DNA from: Pyrenula massariospora
Taxonomy: Eukaryota > Ascomycota > Eurotiomycetes > Pyrenulales > Pyrenulaceae
DNA length: 64,000 nt
Assembly: GCA_021030905.1 (NCBI GenBank)
Contig: JAGFMI010000013.1
Location: 1,054,001-1,118,000 of the forward strand
Reading direction: 5' to 3'
Part shown: positions 30 through 42,552 of the stretch, piece after piece
Layout: every line of letters starts with the position of its first letter
Numbering within the stretch: the stretch's first letter is position 1
Notes under the pieces: model-generated
What the model was told of the DNA's origin: nothing
Database searches by the model: none
What the model saw: only the letters and a program-made list of their open reading frames with translations
Translations under genes and position numbers: made by a program

Positions 30-210
30 TGTAACGATCAAGGTTTAAAATAAATGTATTAAGCTATATAAGCAGTTTCTGGCCTGGATATAGCTATATT
101 AAATTAAAAAATTACTCTATATACGCGCGCGCGAGCAAAAATTTTAAAGATATATACTATATATTATATAATATTAAAATTATTAAAACTATATAAAGCG
201 CGATATTATA
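30..210 (-). repeat. LTR of element E (left; 3' LTR)
   Basis: 181 bp, aligning end to end without gaps by eye to 42372-42552. It starts TGTAAC and its end is converted to AT. It is far more AT-rich than its partner. Confidence 0.9.
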
Positions 211-3200
211 TTATTTTTTTTAAAAATAAACTTAAAACAATCTAGTTATAATTTAATATTATAGATAAAAAAAAATCTTTAAAAAGTATTCTCTATTAAA
301 ATATATAAAAAAAATAATAGTTTAATTTATTTCCTATACTTTTTTAATTTTATTTTAATTTTAATTATTATATTATTTTTTAAGGTGGCAACCATTTCTT
401 TTTTTTATATAAATTTTTAATTATTTTTTTAATTTTTTAAACGGTTCGGCGGTTTCTAAATAATATTTATAAAAAATTTTAACTAAATAAAACGAGCCTA
501 TAAAGTTTTTTATTAAATAATAATTTTTATTTAAATTGAATTTTATTTATTAAGTATAATATTATAACATTTTTTTTAATATATAATTATTTAAAAATTT
601 TTTAACTGTTTATTTCGGTTCCTTATTAATTTTTATAAATATTTTTAATTTTTAAATTTATTTAAAAAGTAGGTTGTTAACAGTCTTTTTTAATTTATTT
701 ATATAAAATATTAAATATATTTTTATATATTCCGATAATTATACTTTATAAAAATAATTTTTTATTTTAATAATAAAATAAAATTTACGATTTTACTAAT
801 TGAGCTTATTATTTAAATATTTTAAACTTTAATTTTTTTATTTAATATAAATTAAATTTTTAATTTTAAAATTAAATTTTTATTAATATTTATTAATTTA
901 TTTAGTTTAGCGCTTTTAAGCGATACTTAAATTTTTTTAAATTTATTTAACAATATTATAGGCTCGCTTAATAAATTATTAAATTTTAATATAAATAAAC
1001 TGCTTTTTAGCGATGAGCGATTTTTTTATTTATTTTTTTTAATTAAAATATTATTTTATAAAATAGCTAAATTTTAATTTAAATAATAAATATTTTATTA
1101 GATTATATTTTAAAATTATTTAAACGAAATCGATGACCGGTAAAAATTTTAATTAATTATTTTAAAAATAATTTATAAAGAGTCATAAACACTAGTTAAT
1201 ATATTATATTAAAATTTTAAAATTATTATTAATCTATGAATAATCGATTATATTAAATTTTTATTTAATTTTTATAAATAAATATAGTTTGTTTATAAAG
1301 AAGAAAATAAATTAAAATTTTTAATTTAAAATAATAATTTCGGAGATACTATATACGCGCTAAATATATATATAATATAATTAAATAATTTTATTTATAA
1401 TAACCATTTTTAGATAAAAAAAAAATTTTTTTTATTTAAATAATTTATTATTATTAATATGTTATTAAAGCCTTACTTATTTTTAAAAAAAATTTTTAAA
1501 ATTTATTAAAATATATTATCAATAACACTCTAAGATCGGTAAAGAGTGTAAAAATTTTAAATTTTTATTTTTAAAAATTTTTTTTGGTTGATAAAATAAA
1601 CAGTTTTAAATAAATTACTTTATATTTATTATTAAATTATATTAATAATATTAATAATATTACTTTATAATTAATTTTTATATTTTTTTTATTTTAAATA
1701 CACCACGATAAAATTTATATATATATATTAAATTAATTAAATTTAAAGATTTATTATATTTAATATTTATAATTTATTATATTTTAATAAAAGCCCCTCT
1801 ATAAAATTTTATTTTTATTTTTTTTTTAACTAATTGGCAGTACAGCTGCGCAGCGAAGTTTTTACAATTAATTTTAAAAATTTAATTAATTAGTTTAAAT
1901 GAAGATTTTTTATTAACAGATTTTAAATTTATAATTATTATTAATTTAATTAAAATATTAGTCTGTACAGCAATATTTTTAATTTTTTAAATTTTTAATT
2001 TTTTTATTTTATGCGAGAGGACATCGATAATAATATTTTTAATTTTAAATTAATAAAAAATAAAAAATTAGTAATTTTCTATAAGTTTCTATTAATATGC
2101 TTATTAAAAATGAAATAAATATTTAATTATAAAAACTTTTAGCGTACAGTAATTTATTAAAATAAAAAAAATTTTTTATAAATCGATTAATAATAAATAT
2201 TATTTTTTTAAATTTAAAATTATAACAAATATTTTTTTATTGTAAATTTTATAATATATTTTTATAAATTATAATATTTTAAAGAAGAAGATTATCGACT
2301 TTTAATTTTTATTATTTTATAATTAATATAAAATTTTTATTATTATGTTGTTATTGGCGTCGATTTTTATATATATTTATTAATAAAAAAAAAGTACGTG
2401 AGCATTTAATTGAATATTATAAATTTTTTAATATAATTAAAAATTTATTACTTTTTATCTCTAAAATAATATTAATATTTTTTAATTATAAATTTTTATA
2501 GAAAATGTGCGACGCGTTCCATCTTAAATAAAAATATATAATAAAAATTAATAAAATTTAAAAAAGACTATATAGCTTTTATTAAATAAAATTTTAATTA
2601 ATTTTAAATAATAAATATTTTTTTTAAATTTATTTATAGTTCTTCGGTGCTTACAATAAAATTTAAAAATTTAATTTTTTATATATAGAACTCGCTCTTT
2701 TAAATATTTATTTATAATTTTATTTTTTTTAATCGTTAAAGTATCTTTTTTATATATATTTTATATTTAAAAGAATCTTTAAAGAAAATTAAAATATTAT
2801 TTATATAGGCTGTATAGAAATTATTTAAATAATTAAATAATATTTTATTTATAAATTGCTAAAAAGAAGCAGGATTATTATATAAATTAAAAAATAAAAT
2901 TTAATATTTATATAAATTAAATTATATATAAAATATTGTAAAATTTTTTATTTTAAAAATTATTTAAATTTAATAAAAGGCCTACTATATATTTAGTTTT
3001 ATAAAAATTTATATTTATTATAACCGAGTTAAAGTTTCGCTAATAAATAATAATAAATATTAATTTTTTTTAATAAAAATATTAAAGCGTCGGTAATCTA
3101 TATAAAATTTTTATTTTTTTTTTTAATTTTTTTTTAAATAGTATAAATAAAGCGAAGGAGCTGCCGCTAAATATAATAAATTTTTTTTTATATATTTTTT

Positions 3201-4030
3201 TAGAAGTATGCCTTCGTAAACTTTAAATATTTTAATAATATATTATATAAAAAGTTAAAAGCTAATTTATTATTCTCGGTAAATTCAATTTAATAGTTTA
3301 CTTTTTTTTTTAATAGAAATAATTTATTTAAAGCTATTTTAAAAAATATATTTTAATAATTTTTAGTAAATGTGAAAAGCTTATTTTTTATTATATATTA
3401 TAATTTATTATTATTAATTTTTAAACCGTTTTCTACGCGGTAATTCTTAATAAATTTATTAATTTTATAAATATTTATAGCTCCAATTATTATATTTATT
3501 TTTATATTAAATAAATAGGCCGATTTATTAATTATATAAATATTTATTTATAGTAAGTCTTTAACCCGATACTTCTTTAATAATTTTTTAAATTTATTAA
3601 ATTTTAGGTTCTTTAAATTTTAAATTAGTTTTTTTTTTATTTTTTATAAACTCTTTTAAGTATCCTTTATCCATATTTTATTTTTTAATAAATAATTAAA
3701 AATTTTAATTTTAAGCTCGGATCGGCATAATATTTTAATTAAATTAATTAGCCTATTTATCTATTTTAATAATTAATTTTTTTAATCGGTATCTTCTTAA
3801 TAAACTGCTTTTATTAAATAAAGCGTATTTTATTCTTAACGGAATATTATTATATACTATTTAATACTAGAAGACGCCAGCAAAAATATTTTGCCGTTAA
3901 TTTAAAATATTATTTATTTTTTAATTTACATTTTTTAGATTAATTTTTATAATTTAATTGAATATATCTTTATATATATATTTTATATATATTTTAATTT
4001 TATTAAATAGTTTAATTAATATATTTAATT

Positions 4031-4280
4031 TTAATAAATAAAGCCCGCTAATTATTTATAATAAATAAATTTTTTTAAATTATTTAGTCTTAATAAATAA
4101 AGCCCGCTAATTTATTATTAATAAATAAATTTTATAAATTATTTAGTTTTAATAAATAAAGCCCGCTGATTTATTATTAATAAATAAATTTTATTAATAT
4201 ATTTAATCTTAATAAATAGAGCCCGCTAATAATTTATAAATTATTAAATTTTAATAAATAGAATCCGCAAATTATTATTT
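4031..4280. repeat. 59-60 bp AT-rich tandem repeat, four to five units
   Basis: The motif GCCCGCT recurs at 4043, 4102, 4161 and 4221, giving periods of 59, 59 and 60 bp, followed by a shorter degenerate unit with ATCCGC near 4263. Each unit is a short GC core in AT-only DNA. It lies within element E, near where gag and pol should meet. Confidence 0.85.
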
Positions 4281-5240
4281 TTAATAAATAAATAAATTTA
4301 TTATAATTATTATTAGTAGGTTATTTATATAATTATATAAATTTTATTTTATTATTAATATTATCTTATTGTTAAGTTTATTTTATTATTAATTTTATTT
4401 TATTATAATTTTATTTTTATGTTATATAAATTTTATTATTATATTATATAAATTTTATTTTTATGTTATAAATTTTATTATTATATTATATATATTTTAT
4501 TATTATATCTAAATTTTATTTTATAAATTTATATTTTTATCATTTAAATTTTATTATATTATTTAAAGTTTTTTATATTATTTAAATGTTTTGTTATATA
4601 AATTATATAGTTTTTATTTTATTCATTATATATATTTTATTTTATAAAGTTTATTATTTTATTTATTTTATTATAGAAATTTAATTTAATTATTTATAAT
4701 TTTAATTATTTATAATAACTTTAATTATTTATAATTTTAATCATTTATAATTTTAATTATTTATAATAACTTTAATTATTATTAATAGCTTTAATTATTA
4801 TCAATAGTTTTAATAATTATTTATAATTCTAATTATTATAAATTTTATTATTATAAAACTAATTATTTCTAAATTAAGTTTTCATAAAACTAATTATTAT
4901 AAAGCTAATTATTATAAAGCTAATTATTATAAAGCTAATTATTATAAGAAATATAGTTATTATTAATAGCTTTAATTATTATAAATAGTTTTTATTTTTA
5001 TTAACAGTTTTAATTATTTAAAATTTTAAATATTTAAAATTTTTATTATTTATAATTTTTATTATTTATAATTTTTATTATTTCGATATTAATTATTTAT
5101 AATCTATATTTTAATTAGAATTTTAATTATTTATAAATTTAATTCATAATTATTTACAACTTTAATTATTTATAAATTTATTTATTATCAGTTTTATTAA
5201 TATTTATTATAAATCCAATTATTAAAAATCTAATTATTTG
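4281..5240. repeat. AT-rich low-complexity arrays
   Basis: Nearly pure A/T DNA built of short degenerate repeats. Types seen are TTTTATTATTATATTA-like blocks (4,320-4,690), then taattattTATAAT-like units of about 12-18 bp (4,690-5,240). A run of AAAGCTAATTATTAT units lies near 4,900. I see no gene. Confidence 0.8.
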
Positions 5241-5400
5241 TCAGGCCGGATAGGCGCGCACAGCGCCTCTTAGCCGCTCGGCTAAAACAGTAACAGAGAC
5301 ACCTTAATTGGTATTACCCCTCTACCAATTAAGCTATAAGGCTCTATAAGGCTCTCGAGCCTACTTGGGAAGGTGTGGCGAGGTCTTGGCATTCCTCACA
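5241..5400 (-). other. GC-rich hairpin island with pol III box-A-like motifs
   Basis: A 160-bp island, roughly half G+C, sitting abruptly in AT-only arrays. It contains four perfect inverted repeats: 5252-5268 (6-bp stem), 5270-5285 (7-bp stem), 5304-5332 (10-bp stem, 9-nt loop) and 5350-5361 (5-bp stem). It also has a direct 10-bp duplication CTATAAGGCT (5334-5343 and 5344-5353). On the minus strand TAGCTTAATTGG (5325-5336) fits the pol III box A consensus, and TAGCCGAGCGG resembles the D-arm of Leu/Ser tRNAs. No full cloverleaf can be folded, since the D-loop sequence pairs with the would-be anticodon region. It could be a tRNA-derived relic (SINE-like or a tRNA-fragment array) or a hairpin element. 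Its function is unknown. Confidence 0.55.
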
Positions 5401-5404
5401 TTAT

Positions 5405-5796
5405 TATAATTTAAATTATTTATAAAGTTTTATTGTTATAGATTTCATTATGTATATTTAATTATTATAAATTTAATTATTATAAGTTTAATTATTATAA
5501 GTTTAATTATTATAAGTTTAATTATTAAATATTTATTATGATTTTAATTATTTATAAATCTTATTATTATAAATCTAATTATTATAAATTTCATTATTAT
5601 AAATCTAATTATTATAAGGCTAATTATTATAACTTTAATTATTATAAGGCTAATTATTATAACTCTAATTAGTAATTATTATAATTCTAATTATTATAAA
5701 TTTAATTATTTATAACTTCAATTATTTATAACTTCAATTATTTATAACTTCAATTATTTATAACTTCAATTATTTATAACTTCAATTATTTATAAC
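5405..5796. repeat. AT-rich tandem arrays, ending in a 16-bp unit that runs into the gap
   Basis: Units of the type aatTATTATAAg/a repeat from 5,450 to 5,700. From about 5,708 a very regular 16-bp unit (ttcaattatttataac) repeats at least five times up to the gap. Confidence 0.85.
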
Positions 5797-5896
5797 NNNN
5801 NNNNNNNNNNNNNNNNNNNNNNNNNNNNNNNNNNNNNNNNNNNNNNNNNNNNNNNNNNNNNNNNNNNNNNNNNNNNNNNNNNNNNNNNNNNNNNNN
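5797..5896. other. Assembly gap (100 N)
   Basis: Exactly 100 N. The 16-bp repeat that enters on the left continues for part of a unit on the right (5897-5910), so the gap lies inside a tandem array. Its real length is unknown. Confidence 0.98.
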
Positions 5897-6330
5897 TTCA
5901 ATTATTTATTATAGAGGGCTGTCTTTTTATATATAAGACGGTTCTGCATATATCACAGACCGCTGTATATATAAATTTATATAGGTTGCTGTTTCTTTGT
6001 ACGTGATATTGTCCGCCCTTTAAATTGCTGTAACGCAACTTTTAACGCTTACATCTTCTCCGTTTTTAGCTAAATTTTTATGTAACTTGTGCCGTTAGAA
6101 AGCGCGCATTTTTTATATTAAATTATAATTTTGAAGCACTTAATTACGGCAATAATTAAAATAAAAAATAGTGTGCGAAATTTATATTATACAAATTTGC
6201 GGGCGAGCTCCATTTTGATGGGATTTTTAAAAAAGAATGGTTTTTTAACGAATTTTTTGATTGGCTGGCAGGCAAGGCTGGCCAATAAATAAAAAGCTTA
6301 ACAAAACTGAATTTGCTCGTTCAACATTAT
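5897..6330. other. Less-degraded patch, identity unknown
   Basis: About 430 bp with visibly more G+C than its surroundings, including intact-looking stretches such as TGGCTGGCAGGCAAGGCTGG near 6,264. The ends of that stretch (ATTGGC ... GCCAAT) form a 6-bp inverted repeat. No coding frame, tRNA or clear terminal inverted repeat was found. It may be part of E or a separate small insertion next to the tandem arrays. Confidence 0.4.
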
Positions 6331-8550
6331 TAATATTAATTATATATAAAGTTATCTTTTTATATTACTCGATATTCTTTACAGTTAAGAAAAATATAAT
6401 TTTTAATAAATTAAATATATTTTAGTAATATATTATATCTTTTTATATTATAAAAAATAAATTAAATAAAAATATATTTTAAACTTAATATTATATTAAT
6501 CTAAAAGGTGTAAAAAAATTAATCAATAATTTAATTATTATATTTTAATATTAATATTTTTTAAATTAATTTATAAGATATAATTTATAGTCATCTTTTT
6601 AATTTTATTTTTTATTTATAATATATAAAGGCCTATCCGTTAATTTTTATATTTAATAATATTTTAATATACAATTTTATCTTTTTAGAAATAATTTTAT
6701 TTTTAATTATTAATATAACTTTTTTTATTAATTTTATTAATATAACTTTTTTTATTAATTTTATTAATAAAAAAATATAGTTTGTTATCTACGCCTTTAT
6801 TTTTTTTAATTTTAAAATAATAATTTTATTTAAAATTATTTATTTTTTAAATTGCTCTCTTTCTTATCCTAATTAAAAATTTTTATTTATTTAATTTAAA
6901 TTGTTTTTTTCGACTCGAAGTAATTATAAACTATATATATTTTTTTTATTATAATTATAGTAAATAATATTTGAGGTATTTAAAATTTTAATTTTTAAAA
7001 TAAAAATAGCCGCAGTTAATAATTTTATTAAAAAAACTATATTTATTAATTAATATATTTTTATTTTTAATTTCGTTATATCAATTAATTTTTTTATATA
7101 AATTATAATTTTATTTTTTTTATTTTATTCGATATATTTTAACTGCTGTATAAAAATATTAATTATATTATAAAAATTTTTAAAAAAAATATTTTTATTT
7201 TTAATATATGTTATAGTCTGAATCCGTAAATTATTATATAATTTTTTTATTATATTTTCTTTTTATTCGTTTTTGCGGATTTTATTTTTATTAATTAATT
7301 ATATAAATTTTACGCAGAAAGAATTAAAGTCTATAAAATATTTTATTTTTAAATTTTTACATTAAATTTTAGCATTCTATTTTTTATAGAGATTTTTAAA
7401 TATATTATAAATAAAATTTATTAATTTAATTAAAATAATAACCTTTTTCTTTTTTTATTTTATTTTAAAATAAAAATGTATATTATTTATTATTAAATTT
7501 ATAATTTAAATAGTAATATATATTATTTTTTTTAAATCGGTAAAATACTAAATAGTATTAATTATTGATTTTTAATTTATAATAAAGCTTTAATCTAAAT
7601 AGATAAAATTTTTTTTATTATTTAATTTAAAAAGGTTTAATATTTTTATAAAATAAATATTTTTATTAAAGATTAAATTAACTGTTTAAATATAAATTTT
7701 AATTATAAAGTTTCGCTATAAAATAAAATACAGTTTTAAAATTTAATTATATCGAATTAACTTCTTATTATTATTAAATAAATTAAAAAAATTATTTAAA
7801 TTATTATTTTTAATAGTCGGCATAGAAGTAGTTATTTTATTTATTTATTTTTATTTTTATTTTTAGCGGCTCACTATTTATTAATAATAATAAAATTTAT
7901 TACTTCGTTAATTAATATATTTAATATAATTAAAATAATTATTTTGATATTTTAATTAAATATTTTTTATAATATTTATTTAAATTCGGCGATCTTTTTT
8001 TTAAATTTATTTATCTTTTTAATATAATCTTACTAAATTTTATAAAAAATAATATTTATAATTTTAATATATAGTATAGAATTACTTAAAAATTAAATTA
8101 AATATTTTTTTTATTAAAGGTATTTCTATAACTTTTTTAAAATATTTTTTAATATATTAAAAAAAAATTTTTTTATTATATCGATATTAGTTGTCTATTT
8201 TTTAAATAATTTAATATTTTTAATAAATTTAAATATTAAAAATTGTAATTTAATATTACGAAGAATTACTATACAGTATATAAAATTTTTAATTATTAAT
8301 TTTTATAAAAAATATTACGAATTTTATTTTTTTTAATATTTTTATTACTTCAAAATAAATATTTTTTTTTAAAAATAATTAAATTTAAATCGAGATTTTA
8401 TTAATATATATATTTTTTTTAAAATAATTTAAATAGTATTATTATATCGGCGGAATTATTTAATTTATTATTTAAAAATTTAAAAATTATAATTAGCTTT
8501 AAAGGTTGATACGAATAGAAAGATAAAAAATATTAATTTAATAATATATA

Positions 8551-8724
8551 TGTAATGGGGCAGGAATGGGAACTATCCCGATTAGATTTAATTAATATTT
8601 AATAGGTTTAGTAGATGTATACTTTTAAATATAAATTATCTTATCATTATTTTTTTAAAGATTTATAGTTATAATTTAAATACTATTAATACCTATTTTA
8701 TATAATTATAGCTAATTTATTATA
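8551..8724 (+). repeat. LTR of element D (5')
   Basis: 174 bp. Its first 35 bp keep G and C (TGTAATGGGG...) where the 3' copy has A and T. The two copies align without gaps by eye. Confidence 0.88.
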
Positions 8725-9941
8725 TTTTATAACTATCTATTTCGATCTAAAATAATAAGAGTAAATTTAACTTATTTAATAAATCTAAAATTTTATATTA
8801 TATATTATTAGTAAAGCTGCCGTTTAAGCATCTACAATAATTTAAATAAATTAGTAATTATATTAATAATTATTAATCGAAATTTATATAATTAATTAAA
8901 AATATAATTTTATTATTCGCTATAAAAAAATTCTACTAATTAATTAAAATAATATATTAATAATAAAATAAAATATAAAAGGAACTATAAGAGTAGCGAA
9001 ATTTAATATTTAGTTATTAAAATTTAAATAATTATAGACTGTCTAAAATATTTAAAATAATTAAAAAAATTTTTTATTAAATTAAACGATAAAAATACTG
9101 CCGAAAATATTAAAAAAAAAAAAATTAAAAATTCTTACCGAAATTTTAGTAGATATTATATTTTTAAATATATTAAAATAAAAAATTTTAATAATAATGA
9201 TAACCTTTTTATTAATTTTAAATTAACTAGTAAAAAACAATTTTAATTTATATATATAAAAAATTCTTTTAATTTATTAAAAAATATTTTTAATTATAAA
9301 TAAATAATATCGCCAACATAACCGATAAAATAATTTTATTAAAATAAAAAATTAATTAAACTCTATAAAACAATAAAAATTTTTTTTAATTCTTTAACAG
9401 TAAATAGATCGTTAAAAAATATTTAAAAAATAAAATTAAAAAATTAAAGAGTAAGATTTAGAAATTTATTTTTTAAAAATAATATATAAAATTTTTCCAA
9501 AATAAGTATAAAAAAATATATTTAAATAAAAATAAAAAATTCAACTCTCTTCGATAATATATTTTTAAAATTTTTTTTATATTAAAATAGAAATTTGTAG
9601 AATTTGATAATAAAAAAAAATTTATTATTACCATTATTAAAAAACTATTTAATTTAAATATATTAATATTATTAAATTTATCCGCCGTTTTAATACTTCA
9701 TTATTAATTAATTTAAATAATAATAAGTTTAAGGACATCGAGGTCTTTTTAGAAAATAAAAAAAAATAAAATATAATAATTTTAATAGTAAAAAATATTA
9801 ATAATAAAATTTAAAAAAAACTATACCCTATTTTTTTTCAAAAAAAATAAAATAAATTATATTTAAATTTATGTAGCGAGATCTATATATAATATTATTA
9901 AATATTAAGTACAAAATAATAGCGAGGGTTTATATAATACT

Positions 9942-10324
9942 TGTTACGTAGGTACTTTTGAGTGATTGGAAGGTATTTGCGTGGGTTGGTTCTTAAGAAA
10001 TAACTTAGGATTAAATCAAGAAAAAAATATTTGTGAAGAAATTATAAGGATAGTTCAGTACTTTTGTAACTAATTAAGTATCTAACTATATAAGTTGAAT
10101 ATATTTTCGTTTTAAAAAAGAAAGCGAAGTTGATTCCTATATACTTTTTGTTTATATTATACAAGTAGCTAAATAAAGAAGTTTTTTAAATAAAAGCTAT
10201 TTAGTAGCGCTATTTTTCTTTTTGGGTTATATAAATTATTTATTACATGATTTGGGGTTGACCTCGTACTATTTTCTCGAAATTATAAATATTGTAAAGA
10301 TGCCCGAAATGAGCGCCCATAATA
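9942..10324 (-). repeat. LTR of element B (left; 3' LTR)
   Basis: 383 bp, TGTTACG... to ...CATAATA. Bases 9942-10145 are homologous, in reverse orientation, to the last 203 bp of the A and C LTRs. The remaining 180 bp is specific to B. Confidence 0.92.
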
Positions 10325-16300: not shown

Positions 16301-16338
16301 TTTTTATCTTAAATAAATCATCTTTAGAGTATTTAAAG

Positions 16339-16606
16339 TATTATATAGATACTTTTAAATAATTAAAAAATATTTATATAAATTAATTCTCAAAAGATAA
16401 CTTAAAATTAAATTAAAGAAAAAATATTTGTAAAAAGATTACAAAGGTAGTTTAATACTTTTGTAATTAATTAAATATTTAACTATATAAATTGAATACA
16501 CTTTTATTTCAGAAAGAGAAGCGAAGTTGATTTTTATATATTTTTTGTTTATATTATACAAATAGCCAAATAAAGGAGTTTTTTAAATAAAAACTATTCA
16601 GTAGCG
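16339..16606 (-). repeat. Right (5') LTR of element B, first fragment
   Basis: 268 bp matching 9942 onward. It is cut at the tagcg duplication by insertion of A-outer. Confidence 0.92.
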
Positions 16607-16998
16607 TGTTGCGATTCCTTTCGAAGGAACTCTGGGCGGTACTTATATCATTTAATAAAATAATACTGAACATCACGTGACTGATAATTTATACTATTTT
16701 TAGATAATAATTACAGTTATTAGAAGAAGTAGTCATTACTAATAGAATCGATAACTACAGCTATTATCTACCCCGATATAAAGTTATTAACTGTAGATAT
16801 ATAAAAATCGACTTCGCTTCCCTTTTTGAAACGAAGACGTATTTAATTTAAATAGTTAAATATTTAATTAGTTATAAAAATACTGAACTATTTTTATAAT
16901 TTTTTTACAAATATTTTCTCTTAATTTAATTTTGAGTTATTTTTTAAAAATTAATTTACATAAATATCTTTCGGTAACTTTGAAGTATCTATATAATA
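16607..16998 (+). repeat. LTR of A-outer (5')
   Basis: 392 bp, TGTTGCG... to ...ATATAATA. It aligns with 29786-30177; the differences seen are transitions. Confidence 0.93.
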
Positions 16999-18351: not shown

Positions 18352-18743
18352 TGTTGCGGCCCCTGCCGGAGGAACTCTAGGCGGTACTTATACCATCCAA
18401 TAAGGTAACACTGGACATCACGTAACTAATAACTTATACAACTACGGACCAATAGCTATGACTATCAGAAAGAACAGCTATTATTAACAAGAGTGATAAT
18501 TACAATTACCATTTACCCCAATACAGAGTTATTAATTGTTAATATATAGAAATTGACTTTGCTCCCTTTTTTAAAACGAAAATATATTCAACTCAAATAG
18601 CTAGATATCTAATTAATTATAAAAATACTAAACTACCCTTGTGATCTTTTTATAAATATTTTTTTTTTAATTTAATTTTAAATTATTTTTTAAAAACTAA
18701 CCCGCATAAACATCACCGATCACTTAGTAGTATTTATATAACA
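18352..18743 (+). repeat. LTR of A-inner (5')
   Basis: 392 bp. It begins TGTTGCGGCCCCTGCC and keeps GC at its left end. Bases 18541-18743 are the segment shared with B and C LTRs. Confidence 0.94.
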
Positions 18744-24700: not shown

Positions 24701-24745
24701 AATATAAATAATTTTTAGAATAAAAATTTATAAAAGGGAAGTGAG

Positions 24746-25137
24746 TATTATGACCTCTGTTAAAAAAACTTTAGACAGTATTTATACTATTTAATAAAAT
24801 AACACTGAACATTACATGATTAATAATTTATATAATTACGGATTGATAACTATGGCTATTAAGAGGGACAGCCATTATTAATAAGAGTGGTAGTTACAGT
24901 TACCATTTACTTCGGCACAGAGTTATTAATTGTTAATATATAGGAATTGACTTCGCTCCCTTCCCTGGAATAAAGATATATTTAACTTAAATAATTAGAC
25001 ACCTAGTTAATTATGAAAGTACTGAACTATCTTTGTGATTTCTTTATAAATATTTCTTTCTTAACTTAACCCTGAGTTATCCCTTGAGAACCAACCCGCG
25101 CAAGTATCACCGGTCACCCAGTAGTATTTACATAATA
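24746..25137 (+). repeat. LTR of A-inner (3')
   Basis: 392 bp. The left end is converted, but its right end (25,081-25,121) keeps GC that the 5' copy has lost. The duplicated tttac follows. Confidence 0.94.
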
Positions 25138-28100: not shown

Positions 28101-29785
28101 AAATTATATTAAAAAATATATATTCTGTCAGAAGAACAAAATCAATAAATTTATTTATATATTAATAAGGATATAGAAAAAACTTACGAATTTATAAAAA
28201 AGTATTAAAATTAATTTTATTATTAAACTTCCTCTATCAGACGGCTATGATGCAATTATGGTAATTATAAATAAATATATTAAATATATAATTTTTAAAT
28301 TGTTTAAAGAAATCTATACCGTATTACAGATGACGAAGATTATCATAAATTCGATAATGCGATATTTTAAATTTTTAAAATAAATAATATTAAACAGGGA
28401 CAAGTTATTTATATTTTAATATTAAAAAATAATTACGTTAGAACTAGGAATTAAGCTGAATATATTAATAATATTTTATTTATAAATAAATGGGCAGACG
28501 GAAAGAATTAATTAAATATTAAAAAACTGGTTACGGCATTATCTTTTTATAAATATAAATAATTAAAATAAATAGTTATTAATAGTACAGTTATATTATA
28601 ACAATAGAAAAAATAATATAATAAAATATTTTTTTTATTAAACAAACTTTGGAAGACACCCCAAACTTTTAAAAAATTTTTTATAAAAAGGAATTATTAA
28701 AACAGCTTTGCGGAAAGTATAATAGATACAGTAAAAATTACAATAATAATAAAAAATAAATTAGGAAGAGAGTTTTCAGTTAAAAGAGAAAAATAAGATT
28801 TATCTTTTTATAAAAAATTTAAAAATCTTACGATTAAATAAAAAAATAGATTATCGATAGATCGAACTCTTTAAAATTAAATAAGTAAAAAAATTAGTAG
28901 TTTATAAATTAAAACTACTGAACGATGCGCGAATATATTCTATATTTAATATCAAATTTTTAAAATCAATATATCCTGACACTCCGATATAGAAAATATT
29001 TTGATATAAAATTTAAAAAAAAGATACGTATAAAATAGAACGAGTTTTAAAAAATAAAAATTAAAATTATCTTATTAAATAAAAAGAATATTTTATCTCG
29101 GAAAATATATAAAAATTACTATATTATTTTATTTACTGCTGACGGTTATTACAGTATTATTATTATTAATAAAAAGAGAAGTATTTACCGCGACCGGCTC
29201 CGCCAAAAGATTGTTAATATTCTGTGAGAATATTTAAACAAAATTTTTAAAAATTAATTACTAATCGATAAGATCTGTCCGTTTCTCACTATTATAATTT
29301 TTAATATTTATCCGCTTTTAAATTTCGGTATTCAGCTTTTTTATTAAATATATTATTTTAATATCAGCCCGGCGCTTAGCTAATTTTAAAATTTTTTAAA
29401 AACGTTTTAAATATATACGATGTTTTATAATCTGCATTATAGCTCGCTTTTTTTATTATTCCTCTCAAGTAATCTTCATTTAAGTAAAGTCGCGGATGCG
29501 ATTTAGAATTTTCCACAATACAGCAATATAAAATTTGTTGTTGTAAATATATTTAATATAATATACCAACTTAAAAGACGCTATAATATAATTAAAATAA
29601 TTATAATAATAAGATTAACAGGGAAGGACCGCTGAATAATCTAAAAAAAAAATAACGCGATGTAGACGGGAGGATTAAAAAATTAAAAAAAATAATATTT
29701 TTAATAAATGATTAAATGAAGGCACGATCTGTTTATATACAATATAAATAATCTTCAGAACGAAGATTTATAAAAAGGAGGCGAG

Positions 29786-30177
29786 TATTGCGATTTCTTT
29801 TAAAAAAACTTTAAATAATATTTATATTATTTAATAAGATAACACTAAACATTACGTAACTAATAATTTATATTATTTTTAAATAATAATTACAGCTATT
29901 AGAAGAAGCAGCTATTGTTAATAAGATCGATAGCTACAGCTATTACCTATCCCGATATAGAATTATTAGCCGTAGATATATAGAAATCGACTTCGCTCTT
30001 CTTTCTAGAACGAAAGCGTATTCAATTTAAATAATTAAATATCTAGTTAGTTACGAGAGTACTGAACTATTCTTATAATCTCTTTATAAATATTTCCTCT
30101 TAACTTAATTCTGAGTTATTTCTTAAAAACTAATTTATATAAATATCTTTCGGTAACCCCGAAGTACCTACGTAACA
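29786..30177 (+). repeat. LTR of A-outer (3')
   Basis: 392 bp, TATTGCG... to ...CGTAACA, followed by the duplicated tagcg. Confidence 0.93.
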
Positions 30178-30182: not shown

Positions 30183-30297
30183 CTACTTTTCTTTTTGAAT
30201 TATATAAACTATTTATTACATAATTTGGGGTTAATTTCACACTACTTTTTCGGAACCATAAGTACTGTAGAGGTGCCCGGGATAAGCGCCCGTAACA
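30183..30297 (-). repeat. Right (5') LTR of element B, second fragment
   Basis: 115 bp that continue exactly where 16606 stopped, once one copy of tagcg is counted. The two fragments total 383 bp, as in the left LTR. Confidence 0.92.
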
Positions 30298-32936
30298 ATA
30301 CTATATTAAAAACTGTTATTAATTTAATTAGTTATTATACTATTTACAATAAGCGGACTATTAACTATTAAAAACTATTTATATTTAAAGCAGAAATAAA
30401 AGTTAGTAAATTATTTAATATATTTTTATTTTACTTCATCGAAATTATTAGCCCGTTAAACTTTAAAAATTTATATAAAAAAAATAATTTAATTTGATTT
30501 TTTATCAAGATTTTAAAATTTTATATTTTTAATTAAAATTTTTATTTAACCTATAAAAAGTTTATAAACAAATTAAAATATATTAATTTAAATATAAGAA
30601 TAACTACTTAATGCGAGTAAAAAGCAAGAATAAAAAAAAATTTATTTAAAAATACTATTTAAATATCTAACAAATCTTTCGCAGATAAAGACTAATTAAT
30701 TTAAAATTTTAAATTTTTAATATTTTAAATAAATTTTATTAAATCTTTTAATCTTTGTAGCAACTATAATAATTTTTTTTAATATATAAAATTAAAATTA
30801 CGAAAACTAAAAAAATATTATAAATATAATAAAAAAAATATATAATTATAAATTAAGATATTTTATATAAAATAAAATTTAAATTTACTTAAAAGCAATT
30901 AATTATTAAAATAGTAATAATTAAAGTTAAATTTAATTCTTAAAAAATATCGGGAAAAACTAAAAAGGTGAAAAATAATATATTTTTAACTTAAATTATA
31001 GTCAAAATATAAAGAATAAATATAACAACTTTTTAAATAAAGATATTCACTTTATTCTATTTATTAAAATAAAAAATAAAAAATTTAAAACTAACCTAGC
31101 TATTTTATAGTTTTTAAGTTATATTATAAACTGTAGCGATCTACAACTTTTTTAAAATAATTAATAATTTAATTTTATTTACCAAGTCGCCAATAGATAA
31201 AATTTAATAACTAAAATAAAACTATTAATTAATATAAATATATTAATTATTATTTTTATTAATAGATAGTTCGCGCAGCGGAATAAATTAAAATTTTTTT
31301 TTTAATTAATACAAAGAATCTGCGACTGGGAAATAAAAAATTAATAAATTTAATTATATATATAATTTAAATATAATTTTTTATATAAAAATATATTAAC
31401 AATACTTAAATATATATAATAAAATTAAATTATTTTAATTTAGTTTTTAAAATATCGTGGTTGAAACAGTACAATTTATTTTTTAACTTTATAAAAAAAA
31501 TATTAATTTTTATATTTAATTATTATTTTAAGTATTATCTATTTACTAATAAATTTATTTTAATTATAGTTAAAAAAACTTATTATAAATATCGACATAA
31601 AAAAAAAGTATATAAAATAATTTTATAAAGTTATTAAAATCTCTATATATATATTTCTAAAAATAAATAAAAAAAAGTAAAATAAAATAGTAGTTTTTTT
31701 TCTATAGACTTCGAGACCCTTAAAAAAAAATTAATAAATTTATAAATTTATCGCCGACCTAATTACTTTAATTTTTAAAAATTTTATTAAATTTTATAAA
31801 AAGTTGCAAGTTAAATTTTAATTTTTTAAATAATTTAAAAAAATAGTACCGACACAATATTGTAACTATTTAAAAATATAAAATTTTAAAAAAATACGTA
31901 AATTACCCGAAAACTAAATATTTAATTATAAAATTAAATTATAACTTAGTACTAATCTATTGGCTGTAAAAATATATAATTTATTTTAAAACTAAATAGC
32001 TGTCATTAAAATATATATTAAAAATATATTTAAAAAATATATATATATTTATTTAAGTCACAGTATATAATTTTTATTTTAATTATTAAAAAATTCAATA
32101 AAGAATTAAAAGTATATATTAATTATTAAATTTTTAATATATTTATTATTAAAAATTATAATATTTTATTATTAATAAAGAAAATATTTACGAAACTAAA
32201 TTAAATAAAAATGTATTTAAAATTTAATATTATCGCTGCTTTTAATAAAGTATATATTTATAAAAACTATAAAAAGAAAATAGTATTTTAAACAAGGTAT
32301 AAATTATTTAAATATTTAATAATACTATTTAATTTTTATAATATATTAAAAATATTTTAAACCTTTATCAATAATATTTTATATTTATTTTTAAATAAAT
32401 TTCATACAGCATATCTCGATAATATTCTTATTTATAATAATAATAAAAAAAATATAAATAATATATATAAGCGGTATTTAAAAAGCTCTAAAAAATAAAA
32501 TTATTTTTAAATATTAAAAAATATAAATTCGGAGTTATAAAAATTTAATATTTAAAATTTATTATTATAATAAAGAATATTATAATAAATTTTTTTAAAA
32601 CTTAAATAATATAAAATTAGAAAGTACTTTGCTATTTATAAAATATATAAAATTTTTTAAATTTATTAATTTTTATTATTATTTTATAAAAAAATGTTTT
32701 AAAATTATAAATTTATTTACCGCTTTAACTAAAAAATTTGTAAAAAATTATATTTTTCTATAAAAAAAAATAGTTGAAAATTTAAAGTTTTTTAAAAATT
32801 AAAAAATATATTTACATTAATTTTAATATTTGTATATTTTAATTTAAATTAAAAAATATAGATCGAAATAAATATTTTAAATTAAATAATTATTATAATA
32901 GTTTTCTAAAAAGGCGATAATAAATTATTATATTTT

Positions 32937-33329
32937 TGTTGCGGCCACCAGTTAGGACACACTAATCGTTACTTATAGAAAAAGGTATCCGAAGATGATT
33001 ACGTAATTTAGTTCGGAAGTAATTAAAAACGTCTTAAGAAAACGTCGCTAATTATCTCTAAATAAAATAACGAGCGATCAGTAAGAATTTAAAAAAGTAG
33101 AATAGATTATAATTAATCATTTTAAAATATATAGAAGGCGCTTCTTTTCTTCTTCCGGGTAAAAAAACGTATTCAATTTAAATAGTTAAATATTTAATTA
33201 ATTACGAGAGTACTGAACTATCCTTATAAATTTTTTATAAATATTCCTTTCCTAACCTAATTTTAAGTTATTTTTTGAAAATTAATTTACGTAAGTACTT
33301 TTCGGTAACTCAAAAGTATCTATATAATA
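32937..33329 (+). repeat. LTR of element C (5')
   Basis: 393 bp, TGTTGCGGCCACCAG... to ...TATATAATA. Confidence 0.93.
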
Positions 33330-36300
33330 TTTTAAATACTTCTAAAGATGGTTTATTTAAGTTAAGAAGGATCTTCAACTAATCTTGTAGATATCGAGGA
33401 GGTAAAGAGATTCTTGCCCGATAAGTATGATAAAAATTGTTAAAAGTTTAATAACTGGCTCGCTCAATGTCAAATTTATTTTAAATTTTAAGATAATAAG
33501 ATTACTATTAATAAATATGTTATGTTTATAGCGAGGCTACTTTAAAAAAGAATTTATAAATAATTTAAACTATAAATGCGAAACTATCTATTAGTTAAAA
33601 TTAAAGAAGGAAAAGATTTAAATAACTTTAAAATTGCTATTGTTAAAGTCTTTAAAGACTTTAGTATTTTTTAAGGAAAGATGAAAAAAATATTTAGAGT
33701 AGCGAACGTTAAAAAAAACGCCGGTAAAGTTATATAATAGATAAAATAAACTTACTTCGCGGCAGAATATGCTCAACGTTTTAAAGAAATTTCTGCGGAG
33801 TTAAAATAAAAAAACAAGACTTTTATAATAATGTTCCGAATAAAATTAAAAGATAACATTAAAAATGAATTGATGCGAACAGAAGTAAATCTATTTTTAT
33901 TTAAAAATTTAATAAAGGAGGCGATACGCCTAAATAATTAGTTAAAAAATTATAAATTAAAATAATTCTATAATCGACGCAACGCGGAACGTTAATAAAT
34001 GTTTAAAAAAACTTTTTAAAAACCTGGACGTTCTCATGCGCAGAAAGTAAAAATTTTTAATTTAAATGCAATATAAATCGATAATGTAGAAAAAAAAATA
34101 TTAAAAAAAAAAAGTACAAGTAAAGATATAATTAGAAGCTGCTATTTATATAAAAAAAAAAATTATATAGTTCGAAACTGCCGAAGTAAATCGGTATATA
34201 AATTTAATATAATTTATCAAGCGGATATTTTAAAAGTTGTGTAAATATTTAAAAAGTTAATAAAAATAGAAGACGAAATAGATTTTAAAGAAAGAGATTA
34301 AAATATACTAAATTAGTTCATTAATGAAAAGATTTAGATTTAAGAAGAATTATTTCTATACAACTATATAATATTAGAGGACGATGAAATTATGCAGTTA
34401 AAAAAAATAAAAAAAAAAGCCGATTTATTTAAACGTTATAATAAAAAATGGAAGATATATATTAAAAATGAACATCGTTTAGTTATTTTAAAACGATATA
34501 AAAAAAATTTACATTTCGATAAGCGAAACCTTTTTCATAAGGAAATTCACTGAAGTAAGTATGTATATAAAGAATGTACGTTTTATTAAATAATAAGAGA
34601 AAAGTTTGGGAAACCTAGATACGAAAAGGCGTGTATAAAAATATAGAAAGAATATAAAAATAGAAGCTGTTTATATTATTTACGCGATAAAAAAATTAAC
34701 GTCTATTTTTTAAAAAAAGTAAAAATTTTTAATTAAAGAATATAAATTATTAAACGGAAACAACTTTAAAAATATTAATTAAAAAATTAGAGGTTATATT
34801 TATCAGATAAATATAAAACTTATTAGCTTTAGAAGATTATGTACGGAGTTAGAAAAGTTAAGAATAAATATTTAATAAAAAAGTAATAAAATAATACAAC
34901 GCATTTATAATAACAGTACTTTTTTATTATTTTAAATCGATAAAAGCGAAGGATAGTATAACAATTAACATTATAAACTTAAAAAGTTATATTATAATAG
35001 CTAATGTTGGAAGCGGCATTTGAATTAAATATTTAATATTATTAAATTATAAAAATTTATGCAGAATAAGCCATATATTAGAAGGCGTATTTAAAAATAA
35101 AATATACAAAAATATCTTAAATTTATTGTTCTATTAATTTATACGAAAACCATCTGAAGGATAAACGTGTTTAGGATTTATTTTTTAACAATTTTTAAAT
35201 TTAGTATAAAGAAAGATGAAGAAACTGAGCTGATAATAAATATATTTAATTATTATAATATACTTGCGTGAACAGATCTTTATATTAAAAATATAGCGCG
35301 GATATACAGCAATATCTTTAGAAGCATAAATTATGAAAGAATTTCGAAGAATCGGATAAAGAAAGTTTCGAGAAAGTAAAAAACAGATCTTTCAATTTAT
35401 AAATAAAAGAAAAGAGATTAACGTTATAATTTTAAAGTAGTTAATAAAATCTAAAAGTGTATATATTATAAAAAAGAAGGTTATCCTTTATAAACGAAGG
35501 ATAAAAATTTTAATCGATTTTAAAACCACAAAAAATATTATATTTTAAAAATGTATAAATAAATTAGAAATTTTAATAAAAAAAAAAATGTAGACGTACG
35601 ACATATTAATCTTCGAAAAAAATAAAATAAAAGTGTAAAAAGTATCGATCGAAATAAAATTATTACAATACAAAATGAATAATTATACGAAAACGATATA
35701 TTTAAACGTCATAATAATAATAGTTAACTAAGTAATTCTTAATATACTATAATTACAAAAACATAATTCGGATATAGATTAATAAATAAGAAAGTTTAAA
35801 TTTAACAGATGTGGTTATATAACTATGTAAAAATCTATACAATACTGTAATATATTGACGGATAAGAAAGGTAATAAGAAAATATTTTAAAAAGTTTTCC
35901 TTTCGAAATTAGACGGCTTCGCGAAACAAAGGTTAATTCTCTTCAGCGATTTAAAAAAAAAAAATTGCGATAAAAACAGAGTATTAAAAAAATATATAAT
36001 TTTAATAATATTTTAAAAATACGCTGCGTGGAGCGAGTTATTTAAAAAAAAAATAAATATAAATATATTACCAGAACATCAGCTATAGAATTATAAAATA
36101 AAATTATAATTAAAAAAGGAGTCCACGTTCGAACTAATATATAAATTATTTAAAAAAAAATTTAATATTTTAAGAGACTATATCCAAGACAATTTAAAAA
36201 AAAGATTTATTAAAAAATTCGAATTACCTGCGGGTTTATTAATTCTATTTATATTTAAAAAGCAAAACGGAGAATTACAACTATATATAAATTATCGAAA

Positions 36301-39276
36301 ATTTAATAAAATTACTGTTAAAAATAAATATTCATTATTTAATATTATAAAAATAAAAAATAGGCTATAAAGTGTAAAATATTTTATTAAATTAAATTAA
36401 CAAAAAGCTTATAATTTTATATATATAAAGAAAGGCGAGGAATAAAAAACAGCTTTTAAAATAAAATATAGATATTATAAATATTAAATAATATTATTCG
36501 GACTTATTAATATATTAATTATTTACTAAATGCTGATGAACAACTTATTAAGATTTTTTTTAAATAATTTTATTATTACTTATTTGAATGACATTCTAAT
36601 TTACTTTAAAAATCTTAAAATATATAAAGAATAGGTTAAATAAATCTTACGAAAATTAGCGAGCGCGAGGCTACAGTTAAAATTTAAAAAGTACAAATTT
36701 TATAAAACGGAGATCGAATTTTTAAAATACGTAGTAAAAAAAAACGATATATATATTAATTTTAAAAAAAGTAAAATTATTAAAAAATGGCCAAAATCAA
36801 CTATGATAATTAAAATATAAGTTTTTTTTAAATTCTGTAATTTTAATCGACAGTTTATTAAAAAATATTTTTATAAAGCGAAATTATTAATTAGATTAGT
36901 TAAAAAGAATTATAAATATAGATAAAATTTAAAACAGTAAAGAGTATTTAATTAACTGGTATAATTCTGTACAGAAGTTCCGATACTAATTATATTTAAA
37001 ATAAATTAGTTAAGCCAGATTGAGACAGATGTATTAAATTTAATTATAAAAATTTATTTTATACAGTTACGAAATGGAAAAAGATATTTAGTAATATATT
37101 ATTTAAAAAAGTTGATCCCGACAGAACAAAATTACGATATTTATAATAAAAAATTGCTAATAATAGTGACAGCATTTAAATATTAATAAATATATATAAA
37201 AAGTATTTTATAATTTAATATATTTACGAATTATAAAAACTTAGCTATATTTATAATTATAAAATAGTTAAATAAAAGATAGATTCGATAGTCAGAACGT
37301 TTAAAATAGTATAAATTTAAAATATATTATTAATTAGGTAGAGAAAACGGTCGAGCGGATGCGCTTAACTAAAAAAAAGATTATATAATAAAAAAGGTTA
37401 TCGAACAATCTATACTGAAAAAAAATTTAGATAAAAGTTTTAACCTGAACTAAGTTGTTAATATAATTATATAAAAATACGGCAAAAAACAGGAACTTCA
37501 GAATTTTAATAAAAAAAATAAGGAAACAAAGCTTATAGTTTTAAAAAAATTAGTAAAAGCTGTTATATAATAATATTATAATTTATTTATATATAGATAC
37601 TTAGGAATTAATAATACCGTCGAATTGATACAAAGAATATATTAAATGCCGAAGCTGAAACAGCGAGTCAAAGACTACATTAAAAAGTATATATCGTATT
37701 AAAAAAATAAAATTAGTAAATCTTTTTATATATTAGCATCAATATGGAAACGGTTTATAAAATTATAAAAAAGTATTAAAATCGATTTTATTACTAAACT
37801 GTTACTATTAAACAGATATAATATAATTATAATAATAATAAATAGATATACTAAGTATATAATTTTTAAACTGTTTAAAGAAAATTATACCGCATTATAA
37901 ACAGTATAAACTGTGATAAATTCGGTAATTCGATATTTCAAATTTTCGGTATAAATTATATTTAATAGAGATAAACTGTTTATATTTTAGTATTGAAAAA
38001 TATTGATATCCGAATTAGGAATTAAACTAAAAATGTTTACGGTATTTTATTTATAAATTAATGAATAGACAGAAAGAATTAATTAAATGTTAAAAAACTG
38101 ATTACGATACTATTTTTTTATAAATATAAATAATTAGAGGACACAGTTATCAACAGTATAATTATATTATAATAATAGAAAAAATGATATAATAAAATAC
38201 TTTTTTTACGAGATAAACTTTAAAAGACATCCGCGTCTTTTAGAAAACTTTTTATAAAAAAAAACCGCTAAAGCAGTTATATAGAGAGTTTGGTAAATAC
38301 AGTAAAGACTACATCAATAATATAATATAAATTAAGAAGAAAGTTTTTAACTGAAAGAGGAGGATAAGGTCTATTTTTTTATAAAAAATTTAAAAATTTT
38401 ATAATTAAATAAAAAAATAAATTATCGATAGATCAAACTTTTTAAAATTAAATAAAATAAAAAATCGACAATTTATAAATTGGAGTTACTAAACGATGCC
38501 CGAATATATTTTATATTTAATATTAAATTTTTAAAATCGATACACTTTGAGATCCCGATTTAAAAAATATTTCGATACAAAATTCAGAAGGAAGATATAT
38601 ATAAAGTGAAAAAAATTCTAAAGAAACGAGGTCAGATATATTTAATTAAATAAAAAAAATATTTTATATTAAAGAACACTTGGGAACCCTCGGAGAATTT
38701 AGTTAATTATAAAAAGATAATTTTAAAATATTAACAGCGCGGAAAAGGACGTCGTTTCACTAAATCGATATAAAAATATTAATTAAATTGTTTAGGACGG
38801 TAACCGTATTTACTTTTTAAATAATTATTTCACTCTGTTGTTGATTTAAATTTTTTAACTTTTTTTTTACTTCAGCTTGTTTATTCTGAACGAACATAAG
38901 CTCTTAAGTAAAACGCGTAATACATTGACAATTTTTAAAAATGAAGTACTGCAATCGCTGCCGTTGCTAAATTATATTATTAAAAACATTTATAAAAATA
39001 TTATTATTATATTAATATCCCTTTTTAATGCAATTTAAATATTTAAATGAATTTTTTATAGTAACGTAAAAAGCACTGTCCACTACATACTATTTATAAA
39101 AAATTATAGTAAAAAAAAAGACGGAGGAAAAACGGGCTATAAACTTTTTACAACGATTAATCAACTTCGTAATACGCGGAGATATAATGTATATTTATAA
39201 ATTAAATTTAAACGGGGCGCTAAATCGATTTAAATATAGTCGCAAACGAGGACGTTTTTATAAAAAAAAAAAATAA

Positions 39277-39669
39277 TATTACAGTCACCAGTCAGGGTAT
39301 ATTAATTATTATTTATAAAGAAAGATACCTGAGAATAATCACGTAATTTAATTCGAAAGTGATCAAAAACGTCTTAAGGAAGTGTCGCTGATCACCTCTG
39401 AGCAAGATAATAAATAATTAATAAAAATTTAGAAGAATAGAACAGATTATGATTAATTACTTCAAAATATATAGAAGGCGTTTCTTTTTCTCTTCCGGAT
39501 AAAAAAATGTATTCAACTTAAATAATTAGATATTTAATTAATTACGAGAGTACTGAACTACTCTTATAAATTCTTTATAAATATTCCTTTCTTAATTTAA
39601 TCCTAAGTTATCCTTTGAGAATCAATCTACGTAAATATTTTCCGGTAACCCAGAAGTACCTACGTAACA
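39277..39669 (+). repeat. LTR of element C (3')
   Basis: 393 bp, TATTACAGTCACCAG... to ...TACGTAACA, followed by atttt. Bases from about 39,467 on are shared with A and B LTRs. Confidence 0.93.
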
Positions 39670-42089
39670 ATTTTATTATATTTTTATTAAATAAAATATT
39701 ATCTGTGGAGCAGAATTATAAAATTTATAATAAAAAATTGCTTATTATTATATAAATATTTAAAAAATAATATTTAGAATTGGTAAATACCAATTTTAAA
39801 AACTTTATTTATATTCTTTTAAACTATAAAAATCTAAAATATTTTATAATATTAAAAAAATTTAATAAACAATAAGCTAAATAGACGGAATTTTTATTTA
39901 AATTTAATTTTTAAATTAAATACCGACCAAAATAAATAGATATTAAATTTAATAATTTAATAAAATATTTAAATAATATAAAGCGGAAAGATAAAAAAGA
40001 GCAGATTATTTTAAAATTTTATTATTTAAATTAAAAAGTACGCAACGCGTTATCCTTATTAATAATTATATTAAATAAATATAAAAAATTTACGCTCTTT
40101 TTCATTATAATAATATATAATATTAAAAATATTAAATTAAAATTACAAAAAATTAATCTATATATTAAAATTAATAGAAATATAAAAAAATTAATAAAAA
40201 AATCTATATCAACGAAAAATTTTAAAAAATAGATTAATTTAATTTATAAAAAAAAATAAAATAATTTAAATATTAATATAAATAAAGACTAATAGAGATC
40301 GAGTACTATTAGTATTATTAATAAATAAAAATTTAAAATTAAAATTAAAAAATTATCGATTAACAGAAAATAAAATTTATATAAATAAATATTTATTTAT
40401 ATTTATAAACTTCGAATTTAAAATTGTAATTATTTGAGGTCTTTATAATATTTAAATAATAAAATATAAAAAAAGAAAAGCTACTTTTTATTAAATATTA
40501 AAAAAATATTATTGACTTAAAATAAAAAAAACTATTTTAATATATATTTAAAATTGCCAAATATATTATTATTTAAAATTATTTAAAAAAAAAAAGTACG
40601 GCTTATTAAAATCTTTATTAATTTTAAAAAAATATTAAATTAATATTTTTATAAACTTTATTATATTATTATTTAAAAATACTATAAAAAAAACTATATA
40701 TAAATATATAATAATAATAGTAGATTGACTCTCTAAATATAAAAAGTTTATATTATTATTATTATTATTTAATATAAAAATAATAATCCGAATATTTATT
40801 TAATAAATTTAAAAAAATATTAAATATCCTAAAAAAATTATATTAAATTAAAAAATTTAATTTATATTAATATTATAAAAATATTTATATAAATGTATTA
40901 AAATATTTTTTAAGCTATTAACTATATTTTATTTAAAAATTAATAATTAAATAAAAAATATTAATTTCGCCTTAAAATAATATCTATAAATATATATTAA
41001 TTATTAATAAAATAACTAGATCGAACTGCTGCCTTTTATAAAATTTAAAATTAATTTTAATATAAATAATTCGACTAAAATAGTATTTTTTAAAATAATA
41101 ATAAAATATTTATTTCAATCTAAAACAAAGAATCTATAATTATTTTTAATAAAATTTATTAAATTTTTAATTTAAACAGTAAATAACTTTATATAAAAAA
41201 TAAAAAAATTAAAATTTATATTATAAAATAATTTTTTTTAAAGCTAAATAAAATAGGTTAAATAAATAAATAAAATTAAATATTTAATATTTAAATTTAG
41301 AGTAAACAACTATATATATTTAAATATTAAAAATATTAAAATATAATATTCGAATAATTTTTTAAATTATTTTAATTTTAATCTATATATTATTTAACGC
41401 ATTATAAATAATATTATTTATAAATTAAAATTTTTTACTTTTTTAAAAATATTTTAAATTTTTTATTTTTAATTTTTATATTTTACAGCTAATAATTTAT
41501 TATTTAAATAAAAAATTAAATCAGTTTCACTAATCGCGATATATAATAATAATATTAAAAACTATAAAATAAAAAAAATAGTTAATTTGAAAATTTATAA
41601 AAAATTAAAAAATTTAAGTATAAAAAGAAAGGAGCTATTATAATATAAAATTAAATATTATAATTAAAAAAAGTAAAATATTAATCCAAATTAATAATTT
41701 TATATTAAAATTAAAAATTATTTAAATAAAATAATAAATTTTTATTATTAATATTTAAAAAAAATCGGATTTTTATAAAATATTTAAAAAATTTTTAAAT
41801 TAAATTTTTAAAATTTAATTAATAAAAATCTAAGTCTCATCTTCTACTTATAAAATTATTAATAAATTATATAAAAATTCTTTACAGTCGCACTATTTAA
41901 AATTATTTATAATATAAAAATAGCGCTTTATAATATATTTAGTATTATTTATAACTTCTATTTATATAAAATTATATAAAGAATATTTAAAGATCGATAA
42001 ATCATTATCGGTAATATAATTATTGTCTTTAAAATTTTTATTATCTTTTTATATTTTTATAAAAGCTCAATTTTATAGGCGAAAAATAA

Positions 42090-42263
42090 TATAATAAAAT
42101 AAAAATAAAAACTATTTCGATTAAACTTAGCTAATATTTAGCAAATTTAATAAATATATATCTTTAGGCACAGATTACCTCGCTATTATTTTTTTATAAA
42201 TTTATAATTATAACTTGAATATTATTAGCACCTATTCTGTATAATCACAGCCAGTCCATTACA
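42090..42263 (+). repeat. LTR of element D (3')
   Basis: 174-bp partner of 8551-8724. Its right end keeps CCATTACA, where the 5' copy has the converted form. The duplicated atata follows directly. Confidence 0.88.
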
Positions 42264-42371
42264 ATATAGTTTTAAATATGATTAGTAAATTAAATTTAAA
42301 ATTAATATTAATTTAATATTAATTACTATTATATCGTCTACGAAGATTAATAGATAATAAATTTAATATAA

Positions 42372-42552
42372 TATAATAATTAAGATTTAAAATAAATATA
42401 TTAGACTATATAAGTAGTTTTTAGTCTGGGTGTAGTTATACTAAATTGAAGAATTGCTTTATATATGTATGCGCGAGCGAAAACCTCGAGAATATGCGCC
42501 GCGCGTTACGTGACGCTAAGACTGCTAAGGCTGTATAGGGCGCGGCGCCACA
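42372..42552 (-). repeat. LTR of element E (right; 5' LTR)
   Basis: 181-bp partner of 30-210. Its last 75 bp or so (42,478-42,552) keep a GC-rich sequence, including an 11-bp GGCGC-G-GCGCC palindrome and a CRE-like TTACGTGACG. In the left copy the same positions are almost fully converted to A/T. Confidence 0.9.

Follow-up and report, generated by a model that had tools for sequence, protein, structure and literature searches.

The window analyzed here is a 64,000-nucleotide stretch of Pyrenula massariospora DNA (contig JAGFMI010000013.1). Within it we confirmed six LTR retrotransposons (E, D, B, C, A-outer, and A-inner) nested up to five deep, with LTR pairs and exact target site duplications (TSDs) at all six, as a sequence-only reading of the same DNA had proposed. 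The chain of nesting runs from E through D, B, and A-outer to A-inner, with C lying in D beside B. The outermost element, E (30 to 42552, minus strand), is marked by its LTR pair (30 to 210 and 42372 to 42552, 181 bp each), the TSD GGTAA (25 to 29 and 42553 to 42557), and homology in purine/pyrimidine (R/Y) letters. Inside it lies D (8551 to 42263, plus strand; TSD ATATA), with LTRs of 174 bp each (8551 to 8724 and 42090 to 42263) and three internal pieces (8725 to 9936, 30303 to 32931, and 39675 to 42089). D in turn holds both B (9942 to 30297, minus strand; TSD ATACT) and C (32937 to 39669, plus strand; TSD ATTTT; LTRs of 393 bp each at 32937 to 33329 and 39277 to 39669). The left LTR of B occupies 9942 to 10324, and its right LTR is split into 16339 to 16606 and 30183 to 30297 (268 + 115 = 383 bp) by A-outer (16607 to 30177, plus strand; TSD TAGCG; LTRs of 392 bp each at 16607 to 16998 and 29786 to 30177). 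A-inner (18352 to 25137, plus strand; TSD TTTAC; LTRs of 392 bp each at 18352 to 18743 and 24746 to 25137) is innermost; it, A-outer, B, and C carry Pfam matches. Net lengths are 8,805 bp for E (with 100 N), 6,614 for D, 6,733 for C, and 6,780, 6,780, and 6,786 for B, A-outer, and A-inner, the last three just as previously claimed. Counted from left to right with the TSD copy included, D entered after base 8521 of the 8805 of E, B and C after bases 1391 and 4025 of D (6614), A-outer after base 268 of the 383 of the right LTR of B, and A-inner after base 1745 of the 6780 of A-outer. The orientation of B is opposite to that of the A elements, giving long inverted repeats within the nest; arms at 14081 to 16363 and 18719 to 21001 span 2,283 nt with 84% complementarity.

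All six LTR pairs aligned end to end without gaps and at equal length within the pair, so the lengths first read from the sequence (181, 174, 383, 393, 392, and 392 bp) hold. This includes the split LTR of B, which the left LTR matches in two gapless pieces of 268 and 115 bases (79.1% identity each, with only transitions differing). Identities within pairs were 66.3% (E), 69.5% (D), 79.1% (B), 81.6% (A-outer), 75.8% (A-inner), and 79.4% (C). The six 5-bp TSDs, also claimed earlier, are exact on both sides; because two random 5-mers from the AT block match at a frequency of 0.010, exact duplications in six of six elements are not due to chance. Outer LTR ends are TG..CA in five of the six elements, and TG..TA in A-inner, the left LTR of which ends in CA. 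With the insertions removed, the sequence continues at the A-inner, A-outer, and C junctions, as the sequence-only reading had expected. The A-outer flanks of A-inner matched the corresponding copy within A-inner itself at 100 of 100 R/Y letters on each side (two misregistered control comparisons gave 53 and 47), and over the same 100 bases per side they agreed with B in full (100 letters on each side) and with C at 94 and 99 letters. The pol of D resumes on the far side of C, its length differing there by 24 or 25 bases (R/Y diagonal offsets): the RT region of D (31888 to 32593) and a later stretch (39804 to 39961) lie on the A and C diagonals, shifted by C plus one TSD, and a weak RT_RNaseH match of D (E = 0.042, below cutoff) begins directly after C. 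In the E and D LTR regions, the best 150-base R/Y windows match at 1.0 and 0.993. The B-in-D and D-in-E junctions, which have no outside copy, are supported by the TSDs and complete LTR pairs.

The earlier claim that the nest is fully delimited stands for the ends of E but not for E as a clean element, since a tract without detectable element homology lies inside it (3961 to 6330). This tract comprises AT-rich tandem arrays (3994 to 5796; a 59-bp unit in 4.5 copies, then units of ~15 bp), an assembly gap (5797 to 5896, 100 N), and a higher-GC stretch (5897 to 6330; GC 0.31, less AT-rich than the surrounding E) in which no Rfam family reached threshold. If the tract is foreign, E would measure ~6.4 kb, near the other elements. 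A 162-bp island of GC 0.52 (5239 to 5400) sits in a tandem-repeat tract of GC 0.07, with TG..CA ends, TTATT on both sides, and a hairpin with an 11-bp stem. From these features, the island is probably a seventh insertion, either a solo LTR or SINE-like. The TTATT duplication is moderate evidence because a chance 5-mer match in the surrounding array has a probability of about 0.03. The composite index of repeat-induced point mutation (RIP) for the island (0.93) derives from few dinucleotides and by itself gives no support for an unmutated sequence; GC content alone suggests that the island is free of RIP. The four Rfam matches at 5100 to 6400 fell well short of their gathering scores, and none lay in the island.

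To the right of E, AT-rich DNA starts directly after 42552, a sharp decay boundary: over the last 61 bases of the right LTR of E (42492 to 42552), C/G was lost at 30 sites in the left copy and at none in the right. This right flank (42558 to 43650; GC 0.163, composite index 0.55) is AT-rich, RIP-like DNA, and E therefore need not be the first insertion of the block. From 43650 to 64000, the sequence shifts abruptly to gene DNA (GC 0.51). Of 15 open reading frames listed there, 10 were scanned and 7 had a domain match: F-box-like (below cutoff), TreT_GT1, EH, DNA ligase IV, mitochondrial carrier, and DUF5695 in two adjacent frames.

As judged from predicted domains and alignment, A-outer, A-inner, B, and C are members of one Ty3/gypsy group in which C is a diverged subfamily. 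Pfam searches, which covered the right piece only of A-outer and two of the three minus frames of B, found RVT_1, RT_RNaseH, and Integrase_H2C2 in this order in A-outer and C, and RT_RNaseH followed by H2C2 in A-inner and B, where RVT_1 had no match in the frames searched. RT_RNaseH and H2C2 are thus present in all four copies, with H2C2 below cutoff in B and in C (24.7 against 25.5). B gave an SH3_Tf2-1 match below cutoff, and C a weak Chromo match (8.5 × 10−5; 22.8 bits against a cutoff of 25.1); Chromo was absent from the matches of A-inner (E up to 0.01), the right piece of A-outer, and two of three frames of B. Gag, protease, and integrase core had no Pfam match in the frames searched. 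Against chain 7q5b_A of the Ty3-G polyprotein, part of the C RT gave a match at 3.2 × 10−16. In the gap-free region 600 to 5600, the three pairs among A-inner, A-outer, and B have transversion counts of 24, 29, and 35 (4,942 to 4,964 sites per pair), and C differs from these three by 195, 195, and 202 (4,961 to 4,983 sites); on these counts, A-inner, A-outer, and B form one subfamily and C another. Full-length counts were dropped, being inflated by poor alignment of the LTRs and of the 3′ parts of B and C.

D and E are related to this group by pol homology. The reverse strand of E 211 to 3150 scored 644 against C in R/Y comparison (three nulls of 490, 490, and 412) and 613 against A-inner (nulls of 486, 486, and 430), with RT homology at about 2539 to 3149 on the minus strand. 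Since these scores exceed the nulls, we take E as a minus-strand Ty3/gypsy element. E 3150 to 3960 and 6331 to 8545 scored below the nulls, or at most 0.6 above, against C and A-inner, so the homology is limited to 211 to 3150. Pfam gave no match in six minus-strand frame-segments of E and one weak match in nine plus-strand frame-segments of D. An R/Y self-comparison with a reversed-sequence null yielded 48 direct, 92 reverse-complement, and 5 null matches; a reverse-complement pair can enter the count twice, once from each side, and all five null matches pair a stretch with its own reversal. A low-stringency self-comparison of the window by blastn was set aside because the matches listed were filled by AT-rich ones of 57 to 60% identity, leaving only those of higher identity useful. 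A search for self-priming primer binding sites, run without a control, gave R/Y matches of 10 to 14 letters in all six elements at no common position. A tRNA scan of the window (bacterial setting) and an Rfam scan gave nothing at threshold.

The differences between LTRs carry a mutational signature that the earlier reading had not remarked on. The six pairs differ at 442 of 1,915 sites, comprising 441 transitions of RIP-like type and a single transversion, in D, with no gaps. Internal GC of the elements is 0.09 to 0.20 (without E 3961 to 6330) versus 0.508 in the flank, and the RIP composite index (formula as quoted in a passage of PMC13041039) ranges from 0.09 to 0.66 across nine element segments versus −0.70 in the gene flank. 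We infer that RIP was probably the process behind this C:G to T:A decay. Where the 3′ neighbor is invariant in four copies (reference positions 400 to 5599; gapped or varying-neighbor columns dropped), estimated per-copy conversion was 0.70 at CpA (392 columns), 0.64 at CpT (578), 0.51 at CpC (21), and 0.30 at CpG (38). Conversion at CpA is therefore above that at CpG and hardly above that at CpT, and a one-rate model fits poorly. The corresponding count in LTR pairs was 0.71 (CA), 0.59 (CT), 0.72 (CC), and 0.47 (CG). We dropped the idea of a context-free RIP, given that the near-flat LTR-pair and leave-one-out counts are partly an artefact of mutated neighbors.

Taken together, we consider it very probable that the locus forms the edge of an AT-rich block produced by repeated Ty3/gypsy insertion and then mutated by RIP. 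Ordinary cytosine methylation and deamination (CpG decay, MIP-like) would also produce LTR differences that, all but one, are of C:G to T:A type, and a looser count in A-inner put conversion at CpG (0.59) level with that at CpA (0.58). However, CpG is the least converted dinucleotide both with an invariant neighbor and in the LTR pairs, making deamination a very unlikely substitute for RIP. Leftover CpG is enriched at 1 to 10000 (3.81 observed/expected), although GpC is too (4.15), and this enrichment is hence not specific. Slightly less probable still is that the nest is very old and its 18 to 34% LTR divergence the product of ordinary slow decay. The LTRs of one element are identical at insertion, and both the high divergence and the very low GC would agree with great age. 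Against it, the 1,915 gap-free sites of the pairs contain a single transversion, where 9 to 14 would be expected (P of one or fewer, 1 × 10−3 to 2 × 10−5) with the internal between-copy rate, rather than that of LTRs, as the yardstick. The transversion count thus refutes slow decay unless transversions are suppressed here. Least credible of all is an assembly or chimera artefact in a gapped, repeat-rich region, to which the 100-N gap lends some color but which is countered by TSDs that are exact and LTR pairs that align without gaps throughout the nest, by copies separable by transversions, and by a distance of >2.6 kb from the gap to the nearest element end.

Because the LTR differences carry the RIP signature, the divergence of 18 to 34% is no clock. 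Transversions remain usable: the single one in 1,915 LTR sites sets a 95% upper limit of 0.0029 per site, compared with 0.0048 to 0.0071 per site between A-inner, A-outer, and B (internal region), and the insertions are therefore recent relative to the divergence among the A/B copies. Such dating is relative, as LTR and internal rates may differ and retrotransposition errors raise copy divergence. Under the preferred reading of insertion followed by RIP, Ty3/gypsy elements would have integrated repeatedly into earlier retrotransposons, each time with a 5-bp target duplication, and RIP (C:G to T:A) would then have struck the duplicated DNA, probably hitting older layers more than younger ones. 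RIP may have been repeated between insertions. The block may be heterochromatin, which a chromodomain-type integrase would prefer, and selection against insertions in it may be weak.

Because nesting fixes the insertion order along the chain, the locus separates order from mutation load. The order proposed at first sight (E, D, then B and C, then A-outer, then A-inner) stands for the chain, but the timing of C relative to B and the A elements does not follow, since nesting leaves C ambiguous. Converted internal C/G sites numbered 1371 of 1,938 in B (0.707), 1151 of 1,843 in A-outer (0.625), 1157 of 1,853 in A-inner (0.624), and 980 of 1,669 in C (0.587, the lowest of the four), in a count that includes poorly aligned 3′ stretches of B and C. 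With sites treated as independent, B exceeded A-outer (Fisher P = 7 × 10−8), C differed from A-inner (P = 0.025), and A-outer and A-inner did not differ (P = 1.0). Across 14 position bins, B had the top load on its own in 11 and shared it in 1; the 2 bins at 5501 to 6500 were exceptions. GC at RT-homologous columns was 0.083 (D), 0.098 (E), 0.119 (B), 0.137 (C), 0.137 (A-inner), and 0.147 (A-outer), D falling below E although E is older. Outer layers thus tend to be more C:G depleted, though some measures disagree. CpA conversion with an invariant neighbor was lower in B (0.70 of 338) than in C (0.73 of 330) and A-outer (0.76 of 345), and the composite index of B (0.09) is the lowest of the nine segments; both figures make a simple increase of load with depth less likely. 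The low load of C hints that it inserted late, which nesting cannot decide.

Whether the nest is a dated RIP stratigraphy, with order known independently, young insertions, and depletion that tends to rise outward, we regard as a tentative possibility on the doubtful side. If it is, RIP would have acted between successive insertions, new elements would have entered already RIP-mutated DNA, and steps of depletion would count RIP rounds (sexual generations), not time. The locus could serve to ask if RIP load builds up stepwise, and it is a concrete case in which LTR divergence misleads as a clock under RIP while transversions can still be counted. It is a very clean, deep nest of an already known kind of fungal AT-rich region, and its value lies in an ordered record of RIP, not in a novel element type.

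The AT-isochores of Leptosphaeria maculans are AT-rich, RIP-degenerated transposon blocks of ascomycetes, and the Tf1/MAGGY type represents fungal Ty3/gypsy chromoviruses. Like ascomycete RIP blocks, the nest contains full-length elements, decays mainly by transitions, and forms an AT-rich block bordered by gene DNA of balanced GC; its outer layers reach GC 0.09 to 0.12. The context of conversion differs: CpA and CpT are about equal in the nest, unlike in L. maculans, where about 90% of C-to-T sites lie at CpA, and closer to the CpA+CpT pattern of Botrytis, Sclerotinia, and Magnaporthe, according to the survey of C-to-T dinucleotide signatures in PMC4352252. As in chromoviruses, whose hallmark is the chromodomain (so described in an excerpt of PMC3605345), the predicted domain order is RT, RNase H, and H2C2 integrase, with weak SH3_Tf2-1 and, in C, weak Chromo; unlike in chromoviruses, Gag, protease, and integrase core are without a match in the frames searched. 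Plant nested LTR retrotransposons, as portrayed in part of PMC6911290, share the nesting, same-family insertion, and prominence of Ty3/gypsy. In plants, by that source, insertion into coding regions or LTRs is uncommon, whereas here A-outer sits within an LTR and C within pol, and the nest bears a RIP overprint. Nested insertions making TE-rich compartments are described for Zymoseptoria tritici in a section of PMC9970103. Finally, solo LTRs of crapaud in Podospora, found alongside full copies mutated by RIP, themselves show few RIP mutations or none, as stated in an extract of PMC10787394; like them, the island at 5239 to 5400 keeps GC 0.52 amid decayed long elements, and by this analogy it would fit as a candidate solo LTR.
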